Notes: generated by a model not told the origin, from the letters alone. Positions 20,708 to 40,990 are shown, counted from the first letter of the stretch. The stretch is DNA of 64,000 nucleotides from Malaciobacter mytili LMG 24559 (GCF_003346775.1 NZ_CP031219.1:2170001-2234000), one strand, 5' to 3'. Program-made: numbers and translations.

Positions 20708-23302
20708 TTATTGATTTAAATGTGCGTTTTCGTCAATCCATTTCATATATTCAATAATATTTTTAACCTCATCTGGTTTCATATTTTGATTTGGCATTCT
20801 TAGATTAAATGCTTTAATCATTGCATCAATATAAGGATGGTCATAATATTTTTCTGGATTTAAAATAAAGTTATATAAGAATTTTTCTGCATTCTCATGT
20901 CTTAAAAGTGCACCCGTTAAATCAGGACCTGAACTTACTTTTCCAATAACATGGCAGCCATTACATCCACCTCTTAAGTAAGCTTCTTCACCTTTTCTAG
21001 CTTTTTCACTCATAGGAGTTGATAACTCTTTTGCTAAAAGATTTTTAGCTCTTAATCCAACATCTGCTGTTTTAACCATATATTGCCATACTTGGTTTTC
21101 CCATAAAATTGCAGTATTTAAATCACCCTCTTTATAAGCTTTATTTGCTTTTTCTTTTTCCGCAGGAATTTTTCCATATTGGTCTAAAGCATCAGTAACT
21201 AAGGCTTTAACTTGAGGATATTTTTCAAAACCTTTCTCTTTTAAGAATTTAACAACAGTTTGAATAACAGCATCTGTTGCTTTATTTGTAGCTACTATTT
21301 TTTTATACTCTTTTTGTAACTCTTCAGGAGACATTTTTGCTACTTTTGCAGCTTTATAGTTTGGATATTTTTTATTATCATCTTTAATTGTTAAATATCC
21401 CATCATCTCTAAGTGTAAGGCAGAACAAAATTCTGTACAATAGTAAGGGAATACTCCCTCTTGGTCAGCTTTAAATGTAACAGAAGCTGTTTTTCCAGGC
21501 TCAACAGAAGCGTGTACATTTAATCCTGAAACACCAAAAGCATGAGTTTCATCTGTTGCTCTTTCTAAGTTTGTAATATAAATAGTAACTTCATCACCTT
21601 TTTTAACAGTGATATTTTCTGGATTTAAGTGACTTCTAATAGCAGTCATATAAACTTTAACTTTATTACCATCTCTTTCTATTCTTTCTTGTCCAGCAAG
21701 TGTAGCACCTTCGTGAACTTCTCCTGTTCTACTATTTGTACCCATTTTGTCATAAGTTTTTTTAGGTTTAATTTTACTTGCATGAATAGATACAACATCA
21801 TGAGGCTCTCCTAAAGGTAAAGGCATATCATAAATTAATTCCATCTTATCACTTTGTAAATCAATTAATTGATGATTTTGAGGATGAAGTGGTCCCACAG
21901 GTAAAAATCTATCAATTGATAGTTTATTTAAAGCAATACCGTATTCACCCCTTGGTTTTGTAGATTTACCTTCCATTGTATCTAGGTGTCCAATATTATA
22001 ATGAACATTTACCCTATCAAGAATTTTTAGATTTTTATAATCCCATTTTACAATTTGAGAATCCACATAAAGTGAAGTATAAAGAATCCCATCTTCTTTA
22101 TCAAATGAAGTATGTAAAGGCCCAAGTCCCAACTCAAGCTGACCATGTAAACTTTTTTTCATATCTAAAATTGGAATACCAAAAGGGTCTTTTCCAATAA
22201 AATCTTTAGTATCAATTAAATTTTTAATCTTTTTAAAGTCATAAATAGAAACATGCGTATCTAATTTTCCACCAACAATTAAATATCTTCCATCAGGAGA
22301 TACATCAACCCCATGGGGAGATTTTGCTTCAGGAATTAAAAATAAAGCTCCAGCTTTTACAGCTGCATCAATAGTTACAACTTTATGATTATTAATAACC
22401 TTTACATTTTTAGGATCTTTTGCAAGTTTTTCTAAAATTTGCCAGTTATAAATATGCATATAGTCTGTATCATTTCTACTCATACCAGCTTCAAAAGGAG
22501 GTAAGCCTTTTTCAATACCACCAGTATACATCTCTGAGTTAAAACTATTTGTAAAAGCCCATCCCATTGAAACACCCTTACCAGCATCACTTAAATCTTG
22601 CATATAAGGTGGAAGTTCTAAAGTAAAAGACTCTTTTTCATTAATCTTTCCTTTTTCATAATCAAACTTCCATAAAGTTACTCCTCCTCTATATTTTTCT
22701 TCATATGCTTCAATTGGAACCCATTCATTTTCAAAAGGAGCAGCATATTGTGCAGCATCAACTATATATTCAGTATTTGGAGTAACAAAACTACCTCCAT
22801 GAGTACTTCTTAATACTGGGTTTACCACTATTTGAGTTGTTTCAAAATCATGAAGATTAATAACTGCAACTCTTGGGTTTGCCTTATCATTAATAAATAG
22901 ATAATCTCCTACATATTCTCCATTTTTTTCACTAAAATTAGGATGGTGTGTATCTCCCCATTCTATTTTTTGTCCTCTAATATAACCACTTTCAAGAATT
23001 TTTCTTGATTCATTATCAAAACCATATCCTTGCCAAGGTTCAGGTGTAAAAACTCCAATATATTTTAGAATTCTCATAGAAGGAACACCATATACTAATA
23101 CTTGTCCAGATTGTCCTCCTGAACTAAATACATAGTATTCATCTTTCATACCTGTTGGAGTATATGTCTTTGCTGCTGATAAAATATCTCTTTCAGTTAA
23201 ACCTCTATTTTTCATGATTGTTTGCAAATCAGAAGAAGCAAAACTAGAAGAGACAAATAACGCAGAAAGTAACACTATACTTTTACGAAAATTAGATAGC
23301 AT
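20708..23302 (-). CDS. nosZ: Nitrous-oxide reductase, clade II, with C-terminal cytochrome c domain
   Basis: Periplasmic copper enzyme reducing N2O to N2, 864 aa. It has a Sec-type signal peptide (KSIVLLSALFVSSSFA) with no twin arginines, a seven-bladed propeller for the CuZ site, a cupredoxin domain with the CuA motif C622-TEF-C626-SAL-H630-LE-M633, and an extra C-terminal class I cytochrome c domain (haem motif CNGCH from residue 780). That haem domain and Sec export define the Wolinella-type cNosZ. The ATG follows AGGAGACGAG. It heads a ten-gene nos set plus a second NosL-like gene and a Crp/Fnr gene, all on one strand, with an Fnr-type box 112 bases upstream. Confidence 0.97.
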   Translation of the reverse strand: MLSNFRKSIVLLSALFVSSSFASSDLQTIMKNRGLTERDILSAAKTYTPTGMKDEYYVFSSGGQSGQVLVYGVPSMRILKYIGVFTPEPWQGYGFDNESRKILESGYIRGQKIEWGDTHHPNFSEKNGEYVGDYLFINDKANPRVAVINLHDFETTQIVVNPVLRSTHGGSFVTPNTEYIVDAAQYAAPFENEWVPIEAYEEKYRGGVTLWKFDYEKGKINEKESFTLELPPYMQDLSDAGKGVSMGWAFTNSFNSEMYTGGIEKGLPPFEAGMSRNDTDYMHIYNWQILEKLAKDPKNVKVINNHKVVTIDAAVKAGALFLIPEAKSPHGVDVSPDGRYLIVGGKLDTHVSIYDFKKIKNLIDTKDFIGKDPFGIPILDMKKSLHGQLELGLGPLHTSFDKEDGILYTSLYVDSQIVKWDYKNLKILDRVNVHYNIGHLDTMEGKSTKPRGEYGIALNKLSIDRFLPVGPLHPQNHQLIDLQSDKMELIYDMPLPLGEPHDVVSIHASKIKPKKTYDKMGTNSRTGEVHEGATLAGQERIERDGNKVKVYMTAIRSHLNPENITVKKGDEVTIYITNLERATDETHAFGVSGLNVHASVEPGKTASVTFKADQEGVFPYYCTEFCSALHLEMMGYLTIKDDNKKYPNYKAAKVAKMSPEELQKEYKKIVATNKATDAVIQTVVKFLKEKGFEKYPQVKALVTDALDQYGKIPAEKEKANKAYKEGDLNTAILWENQVWQYMVKTADVGLRAKNLLAKELSTPMSEKARKGEEAYLRGGCNGCHVIGKVSSGPDLTGALLRHENAEKFLYNFILNPEKYYDHPYIDAMIKAFNLRMPNQNMKPDEVKNIIEYMKWIDENAHLNQ

Positions 23303-28045: not shown

Positions 28046-28112
28046 TTTTCAATCTTTTTGATAACAAGTATCAATATTAATCTTACTTTAAGAAAACTTT
28101 CTATATTATTTT

Positions 28113-28220: not shown

Positions 28221-28547
28221 ATGAGCGTTTTAATTATTGGAGGAGATAAGATCTCTCAAATATCAACAATGTTAGAAGATTTAGGTGCAAAAACAATCAA
28301 TCATTGGGATGCAAGAAAAAAATCATCTGCTCCCAAGAAAAAAATACCACAAGATACAGATTGCATTATAATGCTTACTTCTTTTTTAAACCATAATACT
28401 ATGCTTAAGTATAAAAGTGAAGCAAAAAGAAAAGAGATACCTTTTATTTGTGCTAAAAGAAGTGTAAATTGTGTTTATGATGAATATGTAAAAGTTATGG
28501 GTATCAAAAATTGCAATGACTGCTATGCAAATTGTGGAAATAAATAA
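28221..28547 (+). CDS. DUF2325 family protein
   Basis: A 108-aa DUF2325 protein: N-terminal VLIIGGDK, the central CIIMLTSFLNHN, and PFICAKRSVN. DUF2325 proteins are small Rossmann-like proteins of unknown function. A cysteine-rich tail, CNDCYANCGN, might bind a metal. Preceded by AAGGGG, it follows the microprotein and overlaps the next gene by one base (TAATG), and is presumably iron-regulated from the upstream Fur box. Confidence 0.8.
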   Translation: MSVLIIGGDKISQISTMLEDLGAKTINHWDARKKSSAPKKKIPQDTDCIIMLTSFLNHNTMLKYKSEAKRKEIPFICAKRSVNCVYDEYVKVMGIKNCNDCYANCGNK

Positions 28548-29311
28548 TGATATTAAATACTATTGATTTTCATAAAAATTTTTTAGGTTTTATTGATAGT
28601 AATGAGTTCTTGCCGGAAGATTTTGATCAATTCAACTCTAGTTTTAGATTAAGACAGCTTTTTTTAAACTTAAGTAATAATATATTAAAAGACACATGTA
28701 CTTTTAATAAATTTGAGCAAAAAAAACTGGCAAGATACCCATTAAAAAATGCTTTTAAATATAAAATTGATTCATTATTACCTATTAGTTATATAAAAAC
28801 TTTTAAGCTTTCTTCATCTTTTAATTTCTGTAAAAATTCTACATTAATAATTAATGCTTATAAAAATAGAAAATCTACTTTTATAAGTAGTTCTCAAAAG
28901 ATGTTAAAAATAGCAAAGCTTATTAATTTATGCTATGTAAATAATCAACTTCAATTAATGCTAGATAAAGATTTACTATTTCATGAGTTTGTTTTTCAAA
29001 AAATTAAAAAATTACATAAAGATAAAAAAGTTCAAGATTTGGGTGATTCTATTTCCATAAAAGGAAAAGATATTGATTCACTTAAAATTTACACTTCTTG
29101 GAAAAATATAGAAGTTAAAAAACCAAATATTAAAAATGAATTAGAAAATGCAATCAAAAGTATCAAAAATGAAAACTATACGCAAGTATATTTAGTCTAT
29201 CCAAAAGCAAATGATTTTAAAAGACATATACCTGTTTTTGTAGATGAATTAAAACATAAACCTTATGTAATAAAAGCAATTCCATATTCATTAAGGTCAA
29301 TAATTAGATAA
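28547..29311 (+). CDS. Hypothetical protein in the Fur-regulated flavodoxin unit
   Basis: A 254-aa basic soluble protein with no signal peptide or membrane helix and no family I recognise. Cysteines are scattered (DTCTF, NFCKN, NLCYV) and do not form a cluster motif. The C-terminal third (YTQVYLVYPKANDFKRHIPV) looks like a folded alpha/beta unit. The start overlaps the DUF2325 stop and the end is 17 bases before the first flavodoxin, so these probably act together in the iron-limitation response. Confidence 0.65.
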   Translation: MILNTIDFHKNFLGFIDSNEFLPEDFDQFNSSFRLRQLFLNLSNNILKDTCTFNKFEQKKLARYPLKNAFKYKIDSLLPISYIKTFKLSSSFNFCKNSTLIINAYKNRKSTFISSSQKMLKIAKLINLCYVNNQLQLMLDKDLLFHEFVFQKIKKLHKDKKVQDLGDSISIKGKDIDSLKIYTSWKNIEVKKPNIKNELENAIKSIKNENYTQVYLVYPKANDFKRHIPVFVDELKHKPYVIKAIPYSLRSIIR

Positions 29312-29328: not shown

Positions 29329-29826
29329 ATGGCAACAGCACTTTTTTTTGCTAGTAGCACAGGAAATACTGAAGAAGTTGCAAATAAAATTGCAAAATCT
29401 TTAGGGGATATTAAAATATATAATATATGTGATAGCGATGTAAATGATATATTAAACTATGATAAGATAATCCTAGGTACTTCAACTTGGGGAGAAGGTG
29501 AACTTCAAGATGATTGGGATGAGATTTGGGAAGAGTTTTGCTCACTAGATTTTTCAAATAAAACAGTAGCACTATTTGGACTAGGGGATCAAGATGGTTA
29601 TGGTGATGAGTTTTGTGATGCTTTAGGAATAATGTATGAACAAGTTAAAAAAGCAAATGCAAATATTATAGGATTTACTTCAACTGATGGTTATGAGTAT
29701 GAATATTCTAAAGCACAAATTGGTGATGAATTTGCAGGTTTAGTTATAGATGAAGATAACCAAGATGACCTAACTGATGAAAGAATTGCTTCTTGGATTG
29801 AGAAAATAAAAAACAAGATTCTATAA
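29329..29826 (+). CDS. fldA: Flavodoxin (first of three)
   Basis: A 165-aa long-chain flavodoxin, an FMN-binding electron carrier that replaces ferredoxin when iron is scarce. The phosphate loop SSTGNT (residues 9-14), the Trp loop TSTWGEGELQDDW and the GLGDQDGYGDEF loop are all canonical. It is the last gene of the microprotein-DUF2325 unit and is followed by a hairpin. The third paralogue is closer to this one than the second is. Confidence 0.92.
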   Translation: MATALFFASSTGNTEEVANKIAKSLGDIKIYNICDSDVNDILNYDKIILGTSTWGEGELQDDWDEIWEEFCSLDFSNKTVALFGLGDQDGYGDEFCDALGIMYEQVKKANANIIGFTSTDGYEYEYSKAQIGDEFAGLVIDEDNQDDLTDERIASWIEKIKNKIL

Positions 29827-29852
29827 AAAGTCAAGATTTACTCTTGACTTTC
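29827..29852 (+). terminator. Hairpin after flavodoxin 1
   Basis: AAAGTCAAGA (29827-29836) pairs with TCTTGACTTT (29842-29851), 10 bp, loop TTTAC. Only a short T run follows, so termination may be partial. Confidence 0.55.
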
Positions 29853-29950
29853 TTAAATAAAACTTATTATACTATCTAAACAAAAATTTATACCTTATTT
29901 AAAAATAATTGTTTTACTATATTAATAAAGATTAAAGCAAAGGAGTTACT

Positions 29951-30460
29951 ATGACTTGTGCAATATTTTATGCTAGTAAGAGTGGACACGCAAAAGAGGT
30001 AGCAAATAAAATATCTTTTGCTTTAGATGAAATTAGAGTTTTTGATATAGCTGTTACAGGAAGTGAATATATCAATGACTACAAGCATCTAGTTTTTGGT
30101 ATTTCAACTTGGAATCATGGTCAAATGCAACAGGACTGGCAAAAGATTTGGAAAGATTTTTCACATATTGATTTTAAAGGTAAAAAAGTTGCAATTTTTG
30201 GTCTAGGAGATCAAAAAAAATACCCTGATGAATTTGCAGATGCAATGAGATATGTTTATGATGATTTAATATCTCATGGAGCAACTGTTGTTGGTTTTAC
30301 TTCAACTAAAGGATATGAATTTAACTCTTCAAAAGCAGTGATTGATGGTAAATTTGTAGGTTTAGTTTTAGATGAAGATAACCAAAGTCATTTAACAGAT
30401 GAAAGAATAAAAAAGTGGGCAGAAGAGATAAAAAGTGAAATCTTATATGCAACTTCTTAA
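29951..30460 (+). CDS. Flavodoxin-like protein with altered FMN phosphate loop
   Basis: A 169-aa flavodoxin paralogue, but the FMN phosphate loop is SKSGHA instead of S-x-TGNT, and the Trp loop is TWNHGQMQQDW instead of TWGEGELQDDW, with acidic residues replaced by His and Gln. The GLGDQKKYPDEF loop is retained. It may bind FMN weakly, bind another ligand, or prefer different partners. It has its own ribosome site (AAAGGAG) and a 124-base upstream gap in which I see no Fur palindrome, so it is likely regulated apart from its neighbours. Confidence 0.82.
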   Translation: MTCAIFYASKSGHAKEVANKISFALDEIRVFDIAVTGSEYINDYKHLVFGISTWNHGQMQQDWQKIWKDFSHIDFKGKKVAIFGLGDQKKYPDEFADAMRYVYDDLISHGATVVGFTSTKGYEFNSSKAVIDGKFVGLVLDEDNQSHLTDERIKKWAEEIKSEILYATS

Positions 30461-30552
30461 AAATAAATTAACAAAATAGATACTTAATTTAAATAAGACA
30501 TTTTTTATCCTATTTATATAAAATTATAAAAAATTTTATATAAAGGATTAAA

Positions 30553-31056
30553 ATGTCAAGTGCCATATTCTATGCAAGTAGTACAGGAAATACTGAAGAA
30601 ATAGCAAATAAAATTATAGAAAAATTAGGAAATATTGATTCATATAATATAAGTAATAATCAAGAAGATGTAAAAAAAATTGCTACTTATGATAAACTAA
30701 TCTTAGCCACTTCAACATGGGGTGATGGGGATTTACAAGATGATTGGGATGAATCTTGGGATAATTTTAAAGAAATTGATTTTTCAAATAAAATTGTAGC
30801 ACTAGTTGGATTAGGAGATCAAGAAAGCTATGATGATACTTTTGTAAATTCACTAGGAACAATGTATGAACAAGTTATTTCTCAAGGTGGGAAAGTTATT
30901 GGTTTTACTTCTAAAGAAGGTTATGAGTTTGAAGAATCAACGGCACTAAAAGATAACCAATTTGTAGGTTTAGTTATAGATGAAGATAACCAAAGTGATT
31001 TAACTGATGAAAGAATAGATAATTGGATAGAGAAAATTAAAGAGGAAATCTTATAA
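30553..31056 (+). CDS. Flavodoxin (third of three)
   Basis: A 167-aa flavodoxin with intact FMN motifs: SSTGNT at residues 9-14, STWGDGDLQDDW, and GLGDQESYDDTF. It is similar to the first paralogue along its whole length, including the C-terminal VGLVIDEDNQSDLTDERI segment, so the tandem set arose by duplication. It converges with the fur gene, with a short perfect hairpin (31060-31079) between them. Confidence 0.9.
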   Translation: MSSAIFYASSTGNTEEIANKIIEKLGNIDSYNISNNQEDVKKIATYDKLILATSTWGDGDLQDDWDESWDNFKEIDFSNKIVALVGLGDQESYDDTFVNSLGTMYEQVISQGGKVIGFTSKEGYEFEESTALKDNQFVGLVIDEDNQSDLTDERIDNWIEKIKEEIL

Positions 31057-31079: not shown

Positions 31080-31523
31080 TTACTTATCTTGGCACTCTTT
31101 ACAAGTTCCATACAATTGCATAGAATGACTTGTAATTTTAAAGTTATTCTTTTTAGCAATTCTATCTTGTCTTTTTTCAATCTCATCATCTATAAATTCA
31201 ATAATTTTTCCACAAGTTGTACAAATCAAGTGGTCATGATGTGATTTTGCATTACTTTCATATTTTTTACCTTCAGTTCCAAAAGCAATTGATGTAATTA
31301 AATCAACTTCTTCTAAAAAACCCAAAGCTCTATAAACTGTTGCAATTCCTATATTTGAGTCTGAATATTTATTTTTAATCTCATTATAAACATCTTCAGC
31401 ACTTAAATGTCCCTTAGCATTTATAAGAATATCTAAAACAATTTCCCTTTGTTCTGTATATTTTAGACCTTTTTGTTTTACTATTCTTTTAAGTTCTTCT
31501 ATTACTTCTTCATTATTTGTCAT
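31080..31523 (-). CDS. fur: Fur family ferric uptake regulator
   Basis: A 147-aa Fur-family repressor: winged helix (LSAEDVYNEI...IGIATVYRAL), the regulatory motif HHDHLICTTCGK, and a second Cys pair CKEC near the end, the structural zinc site. It is the prime candidate to bind the Fur boxes across this region. The ATG at 31523 was chosen, with GAAGGG upstream; a TTG at 31553 gives 10 unlikely extra residues. It is the last minus-strand gene after the ferrosome-like cluster. A PerR identity cannot be excluded from sequence alone. Confidence 0.88.
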   Translation of the reverse strand: MTNNEEVIEELKRIVKQKGLKYTEQREIVLDILINAKGHLSAEDVYNEIKNKYSDSNIGIATVYRALGFLEEVDLITSIAFGTEGKKYESNAKSHHDHLICTTCGKIIEFIDDEIEKRQDRIAKKNNFKITSHSMQLYGTCKECQDK

Positions 31524-31608: not shown

Positions 31609-31818
31609 TTATTTGTTTTTCAGTTTTTTACTCTTTTTTTCAGGTTGGTAAAGCATATGATGCCATAAAGCAAAACCACAAAATGCGGCACCGGCAACTA
31701 TGTGAGTTTTTTTAGCAATACTATTTTTCATAAACATAGAAGTTACAACCGTTGCTCCTAAAGTAGCAGTCATTCCTATTTTTGCAACTTCTTTTTTTAT
31801 TTCATTATCGACTTTCAT
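31609..31818 (-). CDS. Small membrane protein next to the ferrosome-like cluster
   Basis: A 69-aa protein: a charged N-terminus, one hydrophobic Gly/Ala/Thr-rich segment (IGMTATLGATVVTSMFM), a second hydrophobic segment (IVAGAAFCGFALWHHMLY) and a lysine-rich tail. Glycine-zipper style helices recall the other small proteins of the neighbouring cluster. It overlaps the preceding 40-aa ORF by 14 bases, and both lie downstream of two Fur boxes. No family is recognised; a component or accessory of the iron organelle is inferred from context. Confidence 0.65.
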   Translation of the reverse strand: MKVDNEIKKEVAKIGMTATLGATVVTSMFMKNSIAKKTHIVAGAAFCGFALWHHMLYQPEKKSKKLKNK

Positions 31819-31927
31819 TCCTTTGTTTCCTTCTTTGTCTTCTTTGAATAGTCTTTTTTGTCCCTTTTATAGTCTCATAAGTTAATGCTGCTGTTAATAT
31901 AGTAGCAATAGGTAAAATGAAAGGCAT
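31805..31927 (-). CDS. 40-residue membrane microprotein
   Basis: A 40-codon ORF with ATG 31927, AGGAG 9 bases upstream. It has one membrane helix (MPFILPIATILTAALTYETI) and a very basic tail (KKTIQRRQRRKQRN). A near-perfect Fur box is immediately upstream (31943-31957), and its end overlaps the start of the 69-aa gene, so both are likely translated together under iron control. Not a known family to me. The positive tail would lie at the cytoplasmic face and could bind phosphate-rich or iron-phosphate surfaces; that is speculation. Confidence 0.6.
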   Translation of the reverse strand: MPFILPIATILTAALTYETIKGTKKTIQRRQRRKQRNESR

Positions 31928-31942
31928 AAATTTATCTCCTAA

Positions 31943-31957
31943 TGATAATAGTTATCA
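31943..31957. promoter_or_regulatory. Fur box upstream of the 40-aa and 69-aa genes
   Basis: TGATAATAGTTATCA: the 7-1-7 Fur core with one mismatch, just upstream of the 40-aa ORF Shine-Dalgarno. Confidence 0.75.
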
Positions 31958-31988
31958 TAATTTTATCCTTTTAAAGTTTAAATAAAAC

Positions 31989-32003
31989 TGATACTAATTA
32001 TCA
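31989..32003. promoter_or_regulatory. Second Fur box in the same gap
   Basis: TGATACTAATTATCA: another 7-1-7 core with one mismatch, 32 bases from the first, so Fur could bind as two dimers in this short promoter. Confidence 0.7.
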
Positions 32004-32014
32004 TAATAAATTTA

Positions 32015-34120
32015 TTAAGCCTTTACTCCTTTTATAGAGTTTAAAAGTAAACCAATTGTTGTTCCATTATGTAAAACTGCAGTAACAATAGGAGAAAAAG
32101 CTCCAAAAGTTGCACCTGCTAAAATTGCTGAATTTACCCCAACTGTTGCTTTAAAGTTTGTATTTATAAGTCTCATAGTTTTATTTGCTAACTCTTTTGC
32201 TTCAACAACAGCTTGTATATCATCTTTTAATAAACTAACATCTGCTGTTGCTTTAGCAATATCAGCCCCTTTACTCATAGAAATACCAACACTAGCACTA
32301 ATTAAGGCAGGTGCATCATTTATCCCATCACCAACAAAAGCAACTTTTCTACCTTCATCCATCATTTTTTTAACAATTGCTGCTTTATCAGTAGGAAGTA
32401 ATTCAGAAAAAACCTCATCAATACCTAATTCTTCAGCAACCATTTGGGCTTTTTTATCAACATCTCCTGTTAGCATAACTAGATGTTTTACACCCAATTG
32501 TCTTAATCTTAATAAAGATTCTTTTGCATTATCTCTAATCTTATCACTTAAAGCAATTGTTCCTAATAGTTTCCCATTAAATCCAATATAAAGTAGAGTT
32601 TTACCCTCATCTAAACTTTTATTTATTTTCTCTTTATGTGAAGAAAAATCTATTTTTTCATCATCCTCTAGAAAATGTCTACTTCCAATTATAACTGATT
32701 TACCATCAACTTCTGTTTTTACACCATGAGCAACAATAAATTCTACTTCTTCATGGTGCATATGTACAAAGCCCCTTTGTTTAGCAGCTTTAACAACCGC
32801 TTCTGCAACTGGATGAAAGTAGTGTTCTTCTGTACTTGCTGTTAGATTTAAAACCTCTTCTTCTGTCCATTGTTCATCAAAAGATTGAACTTCTATTACT
32901 TCTAAATCACCTTTAGTTAAAGTTCCTGTTTTATCAAAAATAAAAGTATCCACATTTGATAACGATTCAATTGATTTTGCACCTTTTATCATAATTCCAT
33001 TATGACCTGCTTTTGAAATAGTTGATTTAAAAGCAACTGGAGTAGCAAGTTTTAAAGCACAAGAATAATCAGCTTGTAAAATAGAAGCTACCCTTTCAAA
33101 ATCTTTAGTTATCAAATAAGAAAAACCTGCTAAACCTAAAGTTACAGGAACTAATTTATCGGCTAATTTTGTTGCTTTTAGTTGTACTGAAGATTTTTCA
33201 TTTAATGAACTTTCAATATAGTGTTTAATTCTTTGTGTGGCAGTATTTGCCCCCACATGTTCAGCCCAGATTTTTAACCTACCCTCTTCTAAAACAGTTC
33301 CAGAAATAACCCTATCTCCCCTTTGTTTTTTTATAGGTTCAGCTTCACCTGTCATAGATACTTGATTTACACTTGCATCTCCAAATACAATATGTCCATC
33401 AACAGGGATTGTACTACCAGCACTAACTACTACTATATCTCCAACATCAATCTCTTCTGTTTTAACTAAAACTTCAACTTTTTTACCATCTTGAAGCTTT
33501 TCAATCCATGCCTCTTTTACATTTGGTTTAGCTAACTCTTTTAATAAATCATCACTTTTATGAACAGTAGTCTCTTCAATATACTCACCAAGAGCTAGCA
33601 TTGTATTTGTTGAATTTGCTGCTAAATAATCTTTTCTATAAACAGAAATACCAACGGCTGCACTTTCTAAAACCTTTGAAGTTAAACCTTCATTAAAAAG
33701 TTCTTTTGTTCCTTCAATTAATAAAGGAGTTGCAGCTGTTGTAGTAAGTAAAGCTTTAGCTAAATTATTAGAAATAAACCTTTCAGCAACTAAAGCACCA
33801 CCTGCTCTTACAACTCCTTCTAAAGAAGGCTTTTCATTTTTTATACAACTAACACAAACAGCATTATCTTCACAATTTGTTGAAAGAAGATCTTCTAAAG
33901 TAAGAGTTTTTAAACTCTCTTCAATAGTTTTTTTAATATCAATATTTTCAATATTAAAAATAATACTATATGCTTTTTTATTTACACGAACACTATTGAC
34001 ACCTTGTATATTCTCAAGATATGCTTTTAAAATATTTTCATCAATAAACTCTTCTTTTAAAAGTTCAAATTTATATCTTAATCTTGTTAAGGTTTCATGT
34101 ACTTTTATAAATTTATTCAT
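32015..34120 (-). CDS. P1B-type ATPase, ferrosome FezB/P1B-6-like
   Basis: A 701-aa heavy-metal P-type ATPase. The N-terminal 75 residues form an HMA-like fold without the CxxC metal site (LTRLRYKFELL). Then come membrane helices, the actuator loop SMTGEAEP, the phosphorylation site DKTGTLTKG, the HP locus (EEHYFHPVAEA) and GDGINDAPAL. The intramembrane CPC motif is replaced by YSCALKLATP, a mark I associate with the iron-organelle P1B-6 group. It is the last gene of a six-gene operon with an HMA2 protein, a ferritin-like protein and small membrane proteins, and would pump iron into the organelle lumen. Copper or zinc export is less likely. Confidence 0.8.
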   Translation of the reverse strand: MNKFIKVHETLTRLRYKFELLKEEFIDENILKAYLENIQGVNSVRVNKKAYSIIFNIENIDIKKTIEESLKTLTLEDLLSTNCEDNAVCVSCIKNEKPSLEGVVRAGGALVAERFISNNLAKALLTTTAATPLLIEGTKELFNEGLTSKVLESAAVGISVYRKDYLAANSTNTMLALGEYIEETTVHKSDDLLKELAKPNVKEAWIEKLQDGKKVEVLVKTEEIDVGDIVVVSAGSTIPVDGHIVFGDASVNQVSMTGEAEPIKKQRGDRVISGTVLEEGRLKIWAEHVGANTATQRIKHYIESSLNEKSSVQLKATKLADKLVPVTLGLAGFSYLITKDFERVASILQADYSCALKLATPVAFKSTISKAGHNGIMIKGAKSIESLSNVDTFIFDKTGTLTKGDLEVIEVQSFDEQWTEEEVLNLTASTEEHYFHPVAEAVVKAAKQRGFVHMHHEEVEFIVAHGVKTEVDGKSVIIGSRHFLEDDEKIDFSSHKEKINKSLDEGKTLLYIGFNGKLLGTIALSDKIRDNAKESLLRLRQLGVKHLVMLTGDVDKKAQMVAEELGIDEVFSELLPTDKAAIVKKMMDEGRKVAFVGDGINDAPALISASVGISMSKGADIAKATADVSLLKDDIQAVVEAKELANKTMRLINTNFKATVGVNSAILAGATFGAFSPIVTAVLHNGTTIGLLLNSIKGVKA

Positions 34121-34123
34121 AAA

Positions 34124-34453
34124 CTACTCTTGATTTGCTTCCATAGCAGCTTTAGCATCTTCCATTCTCTCTTTTAACTCTTCCATTCCAGCTTGAAAAA
34201 GTTCAGTACCTTTTGATACAGCTTTCATTATATTTTCTTGCGCACCTTTATTTGTAAGAAGATAAGTAACAGCTGCACCAATTAATGCACCTTTTATAAA
34301 ATCACCACTATTAAATCCACTATTTTGCCCATTTTGCATATTTTGTACATTTGTTGGTGATTGATTTATATAAGGATTTTGATTTAAAGTATTATTTTGA
34401 ATAGCTCTACTATTTTCAATATTTATATCATACATATTTGTATTCTTATTCAT
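34124..34453 (-). CDS. Small YtxH-like membrane protein of the ferrosome-like operon
   Basis: A 109-aa protein with an Asn/Gln-rich N-terminal 45 residues (repeated NMQNGQNSG type), one glycine-rich membrane helix (GDFIKGALIGAAVTYLLT) and an amphipathic Glu/Lys helix at the C-terminus (FQAGMEELKERMEDAKAAME). The helix-plus-coiled-coil layout resembles YtxH/gas-vesicle-like proteins and the small membrane proteins of ferrosome loci. It starts 8 bases inside the previous gene and ends 3 bases before the ATPase, so it belongs to the same transcript. Confidence 0.7.
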   Translation of the reverse strand: MNKNTNMYDINIENSRAIQNNTLNQNPYINQSPTNVQNMQNGQNSGFNSGDFIKGALIGAAVTYLLTNKGAQENIMKAVSKGTELFQAGMEELKERMEDAKAAMEANQE

Positions 34454-34823
34454 AATCTTCCTCTTTTAAAGTTTTAATTTCATCTTCTTCATAAGCCAAA
34501 GTTTCATATTTTTCATTTAATTTATCATCAATAACTTCAACAGCATAAATTCCAGCCATCCCAATACTTAAAGCAGTCATAGCTTTTAAAAAGCCACCTT
34601 GTTGCCCTAAATAATTTGCAGTAGCAATTGCAGTTCCTGTTGCAATCGCACCTTGTGTTGTTTTTTTAACTGTATCTTTTATAGCTTCATTTGAAGAAAT
34701 TTTAGCCTCTTTTGCTTTTTTATAATTAATTGTTCCTGAAACTACCGCACTTGCTATTGCACCACTTATTACATGTCCTAAGACATTTCTTGGTGTTCCT
34801 GTATCAATTACGCCTTTTTGCAT
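34446..34823 (-). CDS. MamC-like two-helix membrane protein
   Basis: A 125-aa protein with two glycine/alanine-rich membrane helices (about 14-32 and 76-94) separated by a charged loop, and an acidic tail. The loop and second helix (AKEAKISSNEAIKDTVKKTT then GAIATGTAIATANYLG) resemble, from memory, magnetosome MamC (Mms13), whose loop between two helices binds magnetite. Helix-loop-helix order and spacing fit. It overlaps its neighbours by 16 and 8 bases in the operon. The resemblance was not computed; a generic glycine-zipper protein is the alternative. Confidence 0.65.
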   Translation of the reverse strand: MQKGVIDTGTPRNVLGHVISGAIASAVVSGTINYKKAKEAKISSNEAIKDTVKKTTQGAIATGTAIATANYLGQQGGFLKAMTALSIGMAGIYAVEVIDDKLNEKYETLAYEEDEIKTLKEEDYE

Positions 34824-35095
34824 TCTTCATCTTCCTTTATCTCTTCGATTTTTTCAATTACATCTTCTTTTATTTCTTTTAAAGACTCTTTTTTCTCTTT
34901 AATGCACTCTTTTGTTGCATTTATAGTATCTTTAACATCACTTGCTAAATCTTTACTTTTTTCTAATTTAGATGAAGCAAAATCTTTTGATTTACAAAAC
35001 AACTCTTTTGATTTTTCTTTTAAAGTTTTACTTTTAGTAAAAGCAATAACTGCCCCTGCTCCAATTGCCAATCCAGCTATAAATGGTAATGCCAT
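34808..35095 (-). CDS. Small membrane and coiled-coil protein of the ferrosome-like operon
   Basis: A 95-aa protein: an N-terminal glycine-rich membrane helix (LPFIAGLAIGAGAVIAFT) then a long amphipathic Lys/Glu helix with repeating KSKD-like units and a cysteine pair region (LFCKSKD, KECIKEKK). The layout fits a membrane-shaping or scaffold protein, like other short Fez proteins. It overlaps the MamC-like gene by 16 bases and starts 3 bases after the ferritin-like gene. No family was identified. Confidence 0.7.
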   Translation of the reverse strand: MALPFIAGLAIGAGAVIAFTKSKTLKEKSKELFCKSKDFASSKLEKSKDLASDVKDTINATKECIKEKKESLKEIKEDVIEKIEEIKEDEECKKA

Positions 35096-35098
35096 AAT

Positions 35099-35770
35099 TT
35101 ACTCCTTTTCTTGAGAATAACTATTTAAAAAAGCAACTAATGCTGCACCAAGTCCTGCACCACTTAACATAGAGATATTTAATTTTGATAAAAGTAAAGA
35201 GATTTTATCTTGATTAATATTCCCATTTGCAATATCTTCTAAAAGCATTTGATACTCATTTGCTTTTCCCATCATCTCTTCAATACTATTTAAGCTAGTT
35301 GAATTACTTACGCCATTATAATGGTTTAGCACAGCTTTTCTAAAAGCTGGAAGATGGTTGTTATATGAAGCTGCTTGAAGCTTGAAAAGCATATCTTTAA
35401 TATCCTGCTGTTTTGTATTTGCTATTAAATTATCATACATTGCAATATTATTAATCTCACTTGCAACACCCAATTCACAACATTCTATATAAGTATTTGG
35501 TACTTTTATTTTTTCTGCCCAATCATTAATTGGAACTTCAACATTATATTTTTGTAAAAGGGGAATTAATGCACTATAATGTATTGCTTCAGCCTCTTTT
35601 ATATTAATAAAAGGAGTTATTGCTCCAAATTTTTCTATTATTTTTGTATAAGTTTCATAAGCTTTAAATTCATCATAAACAGCAATTCTTAAAACTTGTG
35701 AAACAACAGGTTGTTCATTATTTAAATCAACTCTTTGAGAAAGTAAAATATTCTCATCTAAATTTACCAC
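35099..35770 (-). CDS. Ferritin-like (DUF2202-type) protein with C-terminal membrane anchor
   Basis: A 223-aa protein with a ferritin-like four-helix domain: YDEFKAYETY, EAEAIHYSAL (ExxH), ELGVASEINNIAMYD and a fourth helix with NNHLPAFRKAV, the layout of DUF2202. The Glu/His ligands for a di-iron site are mostly present, though the fourth-helix Glu is Asn. Unusually a glycine-rich membrane segment follows (SMLSGAGLGAALVAFLNS, about 198-215). In this operon it could oxidise or nucleate iron at the organelle membrane; that is inference. Its ATG overlaps the preceding HMA2 gene stop by one base. Confidence 0.7.
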   Translation of the reverse strand: MVNLDENILLSQRVDLNNEQPVVSQVLRIAVYDEFKAYETYTKIIEKFGAITPFINIKEAEAIHYSALIPLLQKYNVEVPINDWAEKIKVPNTYIECCELGVASEINNIAMYDNLIANTKQQDIKDMLFKLQAASYNNHLPAFRKAVLNHYNGVSNSTSLNSIEEMMGKANEYQMLLEDIANGNINQDKISLLLSKLNISMLSGAGLGAALVAFLNSYSQEKE

Positions 35771-36084
35771 TACATTACCTCCTTTGCAAGATTATTTATA
35801 ATTTCTGTAATCTCTTCTAAATTTCTTTTATTTATTAAATCTTCCCAAATTTGAGGTTTAAAAATAGTAGCATCATAAGTTATTGTAACAGAAGCAATAA
35901 TCTTATTTATCTTAATATCTTTTATTCCATTTATTTTCTTAGGTAAATTTTCAATATCCAAAATTGAAATATTTGAGCTTTCATTTTTTATTTTTGGATT
36001 TACTCTTACTCTTAATCTACCTGGAGTATGGGCAATTATTGAAAAATAACTAGCAATTTTAATAATATCTTCTGTTTTTATCAA
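35770..36084 (-). CDS. HMA2-type domain protein, first gene of the ferrosome-like operon
   Basis: A 104-aa protein with the HMA2 layout: HTPGRLRVRVNPKI, then a beta-alpha-beta fold (INGIKDIKINKIIASVTITYD) without a CxxC, so it is not a classical copper-binding HMA. Such proteins occur beside P1B-6 ATPases in ferrosome loci. The start is TTG at 36084, after AAAGGA and a T8 tract; no ATG lies near. A Fur-like site is upstream, so the whole operon is probably induced when iron is low. Confidence 0.75.
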   Translation of the reverse strand: MIKTEDIIKIASYFSIIAHTPGRLRVRVNPKIKNESSNISILDIENLPKKINGIKDIKINKIIASVTITYDATIFKPQIWEDLINKRNLEEITEIINNLAKEVM

Positions 36085-36147
36085 AAAAAATCCTTTAATT
36101 TCTTTAATCTTTCCTAAATCTTTTTTAAGTCTGACTTAATATAAATT

Positions 36148-36165
36148 TACACTCATTATCAAAAA
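36148..36165. promoter_or_regulatory. Fur-like site upstream of the ferrosome-like operon
   Basis: The minus strand reads TTTTGATAATGAGTGTAA: one excellent half (TGATAATGA) and a degenerate second half, about 70 bases before the TTG start, with a TATATT (36138-36143) that could serve as -10 next to it. Confidence 0.5.
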
Positions 36166-40543: not shown

Positions 40544-40990
40544 TTATTGGCAATCTTTACATAGACCATATATTGTCATAATATGATCTTTTAAAATAAA
40601 GTTACTATTTTTTGCAACTTTTTTTTGTTGTTCTTCAATTACATCATCATGAAATTCTATAATCTTATTGCATAAAGTACAAATCATATGGTCATGATGT
40701 AAAGATAAATTTAACTCATATCTTTTTACCCCATCTCCCACATCTAAAGAGTTTACTATATTTAACTCTTCAAAAAATTTTACAGTTCTATATACAGTTG
40801 CTATTCCCATATCTACTTTATAATTAGTTTTAGCAATTGCTACAATTTGTTCTGCACTTAAATGATCATCATTAAAATATAAAATTTTTAAAATATAATC
40901 TTTTTGAATAGAGTTTTTATACCCTAGTTTTGAAACTGTATTTTTAAAATTTTCTAAAAATGATTCAAAATTATCTTCATACTTTTCCAC
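40544..40990 (-). CDS. Fur family regulator, second paralogue
   Basis: A 148-aa Fur-family protein: winged helix (LSAEQIVAIAK...MGIATVYRTV), regulatory HHDHMICTLCNK, and CKDC at the C-terminus. It is clearly diverged from the Fur gene at 31080-31523, so two Fur-family repressors flank the iron region. It might be a PerR, Zur or specialised Fur. The start is GTG 40990, with AAAGGA 8 bases upstream, and it overlaps the stop of a 43-aa ORF by one base (TAGTG). Confidence 0.88.
   Translation of the reverse strand: MEKYEDNFESFLENFKNTVSKLGYKNSIQKDYILKILYFNDDHLSAEQIVAIAKTNYKVDMGIATVYRTVKFFEELNIVNSLDVGDGVKRYELNLSLHHDHMICTLCNKIIEFHDDVIEEQQKKVAKNSNFILKDHIMTIYGLCKDCQ

Follow-up and report, generated by a model that had tools for sequence, protein, structure and literature searches.

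Ferrosomes are established in only a few species. A 2025 review describes the search for ferrosomes in further bacteria as a task that is still open (PMC12574912). A gene cluster in Malaciobacter mytili LMG 24559 raises the question of whether Campylobacterota make such membrane-bound iron stores, and with which proteins. We analyzed a 64,000-nt stretch of this genome (NZ_CP031219.1:2170001-2234000; hereafter, the window, in whose positions all coordinates are given unless a locus is named), for which an earlier reading made from the DNA alone (hereafter, the sequence-only reading) had proposed a ferrosome-like (fez) cluster. Six genes are packed on the minus strand (36084-32015), with intergenic spacings of -1, +3, -16, -8, and +3 bases, and encode an HMA2-domain protein, a ferritin-like protein (FTN), three small membrane proteins (p95, p125, and p109), and a P1B ATPase. 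An 87-base gap separates them from two open reading frames (ORFs) of 40 and 69 amino acids (p40 and p69) that overlap by 14 bases, and a Fur gene lies 85 bases beyond this pair. Given the ATPase clade, the Fez-type small proteins, the gene order, and the Fur-type boxes described below, we conclude that this is very probably a Fur-controlled, six-gene-type ferrosome cluster in a Campylobacterota version that works as proposed below.

The ATPase and the Fez-type membrane proteins

The motif of the fourth transmembrane segment of the ATPase reads DYSCALKLATP, with SCA where copper and zinc pumps have CPC, in agreement with the sequence-only reading. The DKTGT, TGE, HP, and GDGxND motifs are all intact, and the N terminus is a degenerate HMA2 domain (a weak HMA_2 match of 23 bits, below the cut-off of 30). 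A careful tree was calculated for 52 P1B ATPases, including CopA (3j08 and 3rfu), the P1B-4 pump 7qbz, and other CPC and CPG types. All 26 SCA-type rows (two of which read ACP) formed one clade with a support of 100/98, which included the ATPases of the window and of Desulfovibrio magneticus RS-1 and was recovered in all 200 bootstrap trees checked; CopA, 7qbz, and the other CPC and CPG types fell outside it. A quick tree of 75 rows agreed on this clade, which also holds the ATPases of a Lachnospiraceae and a Ruminococcus metagenome-assembled genome (MAG; L052 and L079, respectively). By sequence, the ATPase thus belongs to P1B-6, standing apart from CopA and the other CPC-type pumps as well as from P1B-4 pumps; the subfamily number follows from RS-1 FezB being called P1B-6 in the literature. 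Its tree position rules out a copper, zinc, or cobalt exporter. Grouping with copper or zinc exporters, along with small proteins lacking Fez similarity, had been named beforehand as the outcome that would speak against a ferrosome cluster; what was found is the well-supported clade with RS-1 and the small-protein matches reported below.

In several Campylobacterota loci (L137, L138, L140-L142, L153, L160, L164, and L165), another P1B ATPase, whose N terminus resembles HMA2 and whose motif is SCPCAT, SCPCST, or ACPCAT, lies between the Fur paralogue and the HMA2 gene. A similar one adjoins a FezB-type ATPase in a Desulfovibrionaceae genome (L206 9556-11784); in the tree, it fell outside the SCA clade, close to two CPC-type sequences from Actinomycetota.

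Similarity of the small proteins to those of other fez loci was assessed with profiles built from Campylobacterota members only, which were searched against a set of 2806 ORFs taken from the fez-type and related loci of other classes; in the reversed-sequence control, no small-protein profile had a single match. The p69 profile reached the C-terminal, heme-binding half of FezC from RS-1 (expectation value, E, 1.1e-7) and an HMA2 fusion protein of Azospirillum (E 1.2e-3). This protein is a two-transmembrane unit with two candidate heme-ligand histidines, H39 and H53, which are invariant in 31/31 aligned relatives, and DUF4405 was matched by 27 of these 31 (best 2.9e-5). FezC is a DUF4405-related heme protein (PMC10979944), and the two histidines fit the ligand pattern that would be expected of the heme-binding FezC/DUF4405 group. 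Since the 69-residue chain holds no HMA2 domain, which is encoded by the separate 104-residue gene of the operon, p69 is a FezC-type heme domain and not a full FezC. The p95 profile matched the 86-residue protein upstream of RS-1 fezB (E 4e-4) and a protein of locus L047 (E 2.7e-8). Counterparts of p125, p109, and the HMA2 protein were found in Azospirillum, Vibrio harveyi, and others (E 1e-8 to 1e-22), among them a 120-residue Azospirillum gene (E 1.1e-17) and a V. harveyi gene (E 1.1e-18) for HMA2, and fez-type genes of Azospirillum, V. harveyi, and Rhodomicrobium for p109 (E 1e-14 to 2e-21). The magnetosome MamC model was matched over nearly its full length by 18 of 27 members of the p125 family (23-36 bits; best E 8.8e-9); given that p125 itself scores 24.4 bits against an equivalog cut-off of 100, it is a relative of MamC and not MamC.

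Among 298 sampled Campylobacterota genomes, 101 (about a third) encode a FezB-like ATPase (match E at most 1e-120). The order HMA2, FTN, p95, p125, p109, FezB, followed by p40 and p69 or by p69 alone, was kept in ~55 of 60 loci from several families, with p69 placed further along in some genomes. This conservation takes the operon far beyond chance, and a chance neighborhood is ruled out by the gene order together with the linkage of FTN to FezB in 96/96 genomes.

Arcobacter sp. DSM 115972 from chicken meat carries a complete fez cluster, ferritin-like gene included, on a plasmid of 133 kb (L037, CP129951.1), and therefore the cluster can move. A MAG labeled as Gammaproteobacteria (L048 4460-10015) carries a Campylobacterota-type cluster whose ATPase nests inside the Campylobacterota; either horizontal transfer or a misbinned contig would account for it.

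The sequence-only reading had placed p40 and p69 behind two Fur boxes, and two Fur-type boxes with 13/14 matches indeed precede this pair; 0.2 sites of 13/14 or better are expected per 64 kb of dinucleotide-model sequence. A perfect box and another with 13/14 matches precede feoAB (38079 and 38117). A box of at least 12 matches stands ahead of the HMA2 gene in 17 of 59 relatives, versus 1.4% of random windows. These patterns argue for iron-responsive control of the cluster by Fur. In many relatives, a Fur-family paralogue stands 60-160 bases ahead of the HMA2 gene in the same orientation; it is mostly closest to the second Fur-family gene of the window (at 40544) and may be a dedicated regulator.

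The ferritin-like protein and its membrane module

The second gene of the operon encodes a four-helix ferritin-like domain (about residues 1-155), a linker, and a C-terminal membrane module. The only hydrophobic stretch is C-terminal (197-215), and an N-terminal hydrophobic segment is absent. The Pfam match to DUF2202 is above the cut-off, and the FTN profile matched MJ0754, for which a DUF2202 structure is available, with an E of 1.9e-7. An AlphaFold2 model from 50 sequences is a confident four-helix bundle, whose predicted local distance difference test score stays above 90 up to residue ~150, followed by a tail of low certainty. MJ0754 ranked first in a Foldseek search with this model (E 2.5e-5), and VIA-align gave Z 16-17 to bacterioferritins and MJ0754. 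Since Z up to about 13 can reflect the common arrangement of helical bundles, the sequence match to DUF2202 and MJ0754 weighs as much as the fold scores. Together, the model and the profile matches indicate the four-helix fold of the ferritin-like superfamily. Rubrerythrin was matched by 26 and DUF2202 by 22 of 51 FTN members.

Five of the six canonical ligand positions are present (E34, E61xxH64, E105, and H139). The full E, ExxH, E, ExxH set is broken at the last glutamate, which is Tyr136 in FTN and is also lacking from MJ0754 in the alignment. The five ligands are intact in 16/16 Arcobacteraceae copies, in five of family f10, in f13, and in the two copies from outside the Campylobacterota, which are beta- and gammaproteobacterial. 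Nearly all copies of family f3, presumably the Campylobacter type, have lost the helix-2 glutamate and histidine and the helix-4 histidine, and have kept the membrane module along with E34 and E105. Part of family f2 lacks some ligands of helix 1 or helix 2. In copies without these ligands, catalysis has probably gone as well, to judge from the residues, and the domain may be structural.

FTN was found in 96 of the 101 FezB-bearing genomes, in one copy each and always 815 to 2100 bases from fezB, and no FTN without FezB was found among the 298 genomes, which makes it a dedicated part of the cluster. A stray free-standing ferritin is ruled out: FTN is the sole DUF2202 match in the M. mytili genome, where two ordinary ferritin-family genes lie elsewhere. 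The "unusual ferritin-like member" of the sequence-only reading can accordingly be sharpened, as FTN is not unique to this locus but the rule in Campylobacterota fez clusters.

The membrane anchor, likewise foreseen, turned out to be a module common to other Fez proteins. A profile of the last 60 residues of FTN reached low-complexity Fez proteins of Desulfarculaceae (E 3.5e-7) and Cereibacter (E 8e-6), in which a Gly/Pro/Met-rich chain forms the N-terminal part, and had zero matches to reversed sequences. The proteins of L036 and L046 were rejected as ferritins; these are of low complexity, and have nothing but the C-terminal module in common with FTN. Vibrio has a His/Met/Pro-rich protein in the place of FTN that the module profile does not reach. 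Gammaproteobacterial fez-type operons (L035 4658-5383, L204 4311-5078, and L040 5668-6204) encode low-complexity proteins that are rich in His, Met, and Pro and have an FWKG..GAA membrane segment at the C terminus; from their composition, these look like metal-binding chains in the place of FTN.

Proposed mechanism and alternatives

In the mechanism that we propose, low iron would cause Fur to release the operon, as the boxes suggest. The proteins p95, p125, p109, and p40 would build or shape inner-membrane vesicles, into which FezB would pump ferrous iron, its likely cargo. As a heme protein, p69 would pass electrons across the vesicle membrane, allowing storage as a ferric mineral and later release. 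FTN would sit in the same membrane via its C-terminal module, with the four-helix domain predicted to be most likely cytosolic because the single hydrophobic segment is C-terminal and none is N-terminal. There it would bind and oxidize ferrous iron, or remove peroxide, as iron enters or leaves the store. The presence of the FTN anchor on other ferrosome proteins suggests that the two classical bacterial ways of storing iron have been combined. We tentatively advance the idea that Campylobacterota ferrosomes are hybrid stores, in which a diiron ferritin-like enzyme oxidizes or sorts iron at the vesicle surface, where it is tethered by a module that, in other ferrosome makers, sits on a low-complexity and often His/Met/Pro-rich chain.

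Several points weigh against this interpretation. The box upstream of the HMA2 gene in the window is weak, p95 and p40 are short and weakly constrained, and the comparison with six-gene operons was made with Azospirillum brasilense p3 and V. harveyi, the experimentally studied ones of Rhodopseudomonas palustris and S. putrefaciens being considered by description. FTN is missing the fourth-helix glutamate of the canonical ferritin site, and further ligands are gone from most Campylobacter-type and several Helicobacter-type copies (genera assigned by inference).

The ligand losses bear most directly on the role of FTN within a ferrosome. A ferritin-like domain that only serves as a scaffold or shapes the membrane, and does not handle iron, strikes us as unlikely overall, with more in its favor for some copies than for others. 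A structural role is possible for the Campylobacter- and Helicobacter-type copies because they have lost further ligands, the former with E34, E105, and the membrane module retained, and the replacement of the domain by a low-complexity region on related proteins elsewhere points the same way; the retention of all five ligands in every Arcobacteraceae copy, the five f10 copies, and the beta- and gammaproteobacterial copies argues for iron handling.

A system without an organelle, in which the ATPase exports excess Fe(II) across the plasma membrane and the small proteins are accessory, would draw on the fact that many P1B ATPases are exporters and on the purely genetic evidence for the organelle. 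We consider it very improbable. An efflux pump should be induced by excess iron, so Fur boxes before p40/p69 and in the operons of many relatives are odd for one, and, across classes, conservation of the small membrane proteins goes together with that of the genes found in ferrosome makers. Least probable of all is a vesicle for another metal or purpose, with FTN as a diiron enzyme or another di-metal enzyme, for example a peroxidase. The near-equal closeness of FTN to rubrerythrin and DUF2202 and a zinc-bound structure of MJ0754 (3q4r) would fit this reading; the setting of the operon among feoAB, two Fur genes, and Fur-type boxes speaks against it.

The ferrosome cluster favored here is not a new kind of system, as ferrosomes and six-gene operons are already known; what is new is a ferritin-like member whose membrane module is common to other Fez proteins, together with the division of FezC into separate genes. 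The Campylobacterota clusters or the ferritin-like member may possibly have been noticed earlier, for example by Grant et al. In a limited literature collection, from which absence from the literature does not follow, little was found on ferrosomes and Campylobacter together, including in a general review, and nothing on DUF2202 together with ferritin. The presence of the cluster in about a third of the sampled Campylobacterota would extend ferrosomes well beyond the few species in which they are established, the ferritin-like fusion gives a concrete idea of iron oxidation or hand-over at the ferrosome, and the MamC-like member is a sequence link between ferrosomes and magnetosomes. If the hybrid store is real, storage behind a membrane and storage of the ferritin type, so far regarded as separate, would work as a single machine.

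Neighboring genes and known systems

The six tightly packed genes, the HMA2-type protein among them, and the iron-related neighbors named by the sequence-only reading were all recovered (Table 1), with FeoA/FeoB, Fur, and three flavodoxins identified by Pfam. The flavodoxin genes stand in tandem (29329-31056) and adjoin Fur. Fur-type boxes at 28059 and 28112 precede an unassigned 254-residue gene (28547-29311). An 864-residue protein (20708-23302) resembles, as judged by eye, a nitrous oxide reductase that carries a cytochrome c domain at its C terminus.

Table 1 Features of the fez cluster and its surroundings in the window.
Feature	Position	Strand	Evidence
HMA2-domain protein, 104 aa, TTG start, operon gene 1	35770..36084	-	Pfam HMA_2 E 6.9e-9
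Ferritin-like protein FTN, 223 aa, GTG start, operon gene 2	35099..35770	-	DUF2202 E 2.6e-5
p95, N-terminal Gly-rich transmembrane helix and coiled coil, fezA-like	34808..35095	-	hydrophobic 1-19
p125, two-transmembrane protein, MamC-like family	34446..34823	-	NCBIfam MamC E 2.6e-5
p109, YtxH-like single-transmembrane protein	34124..34453	-	hydrophobic 49-67
FezB-type P1B ATPase, 701 aa	32015..34120	-	heavy-metal P-type family E 1.8e-148
Fur-type box TGATACTAATTATCA	31989..32003		13/14 matches
Fur-type box TGATAATAGTTATCA	31943..31957		13/14 matches
p40, single-transmembrane protein, 40 aa	31805..31927	-	same place in most Arcobacteraceae and other relatives
p69, FezC-type (DUF4405-like) two-transmembrane protein	31609..31818	-	H39/H53 invariant
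Weak Fur-type box, upstream of the six-gene operon	36147..36161		11/14 matches
Fur	31080..31523	-	Pfam FUR E 1.2e-42
Second Fur-family gene	40544..40990	-	

Ferrosomes were defined in D. magneticus RS-1, from which Grant et al. reportedly described them and their fez cluster in 2022. The RS-1 genome was recognized by plasmid pDMC1 (100% identity, same coordinates). The best FezB match, at 3.19 Mb, lies in a trio of genes for an 86-residue small membrane protein, the SCA-motif ATPase, and a 146-residue protein in which an HMA2 domain is joined to a DUF4405-like tail. The last protein fits the published description of FezC, and from its content the trio is probably the published fezABC. Both clusters have an SCA-type ATPase of the same clade, a small Gly-rich or coiled-coil membrane protein upstream, and a FezC-type heme domain. 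Unlike the window, RS-1 has three genes with no ferritin-like, MamC-like, or YtxH-like member adjoining, and its FezC is an HMA2-DUF4405 fusion, whereas the two parts are separate genes in M. mytili.

A six-gene fez-type operon is said to have been published for S. putrefaciens. One is also known from R. palustris (RPA2333-2338; PMC12016538). The six-gene operons of Azospirillum and V. harveyi share counterparts of HMA2, p125, p109, and FezB in conserved order with the window and have no ferritin-like domain. Azospirillum has six genes in matching order, including a p95-like gene, with the FezC-type domain fused to HMA2. The V. harveyi type strain NBRC 15634 (L204) has five genes of its fez-type operon on one strand and the HMA2 gene on the other. 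The C. difficile fez cluster, with FezA and FezB and repressed by Fur according to a review's account (Pi et al. 2023, cited in PMC12574912), resembles by that description the window cluster in its Fur control and its pairing of an ATPase with a small membrane protein, and is smaller.

Two members also have relatives outside ferrosomes. The p125 family resembles magnetosome MamC over nearly the full length of the model, with scores far below the equivalog cut-off and no magnetosome genes seen near p125. FTN has the four-helix fold and the ligand positions of MJ0754/DUF2202 and rubrerythrin-like proteins; its solved relatives lack such a tail, whereas FTN carries the C-terminal Fez membrane module and, in Campylobacterota, is found only in fez operons.

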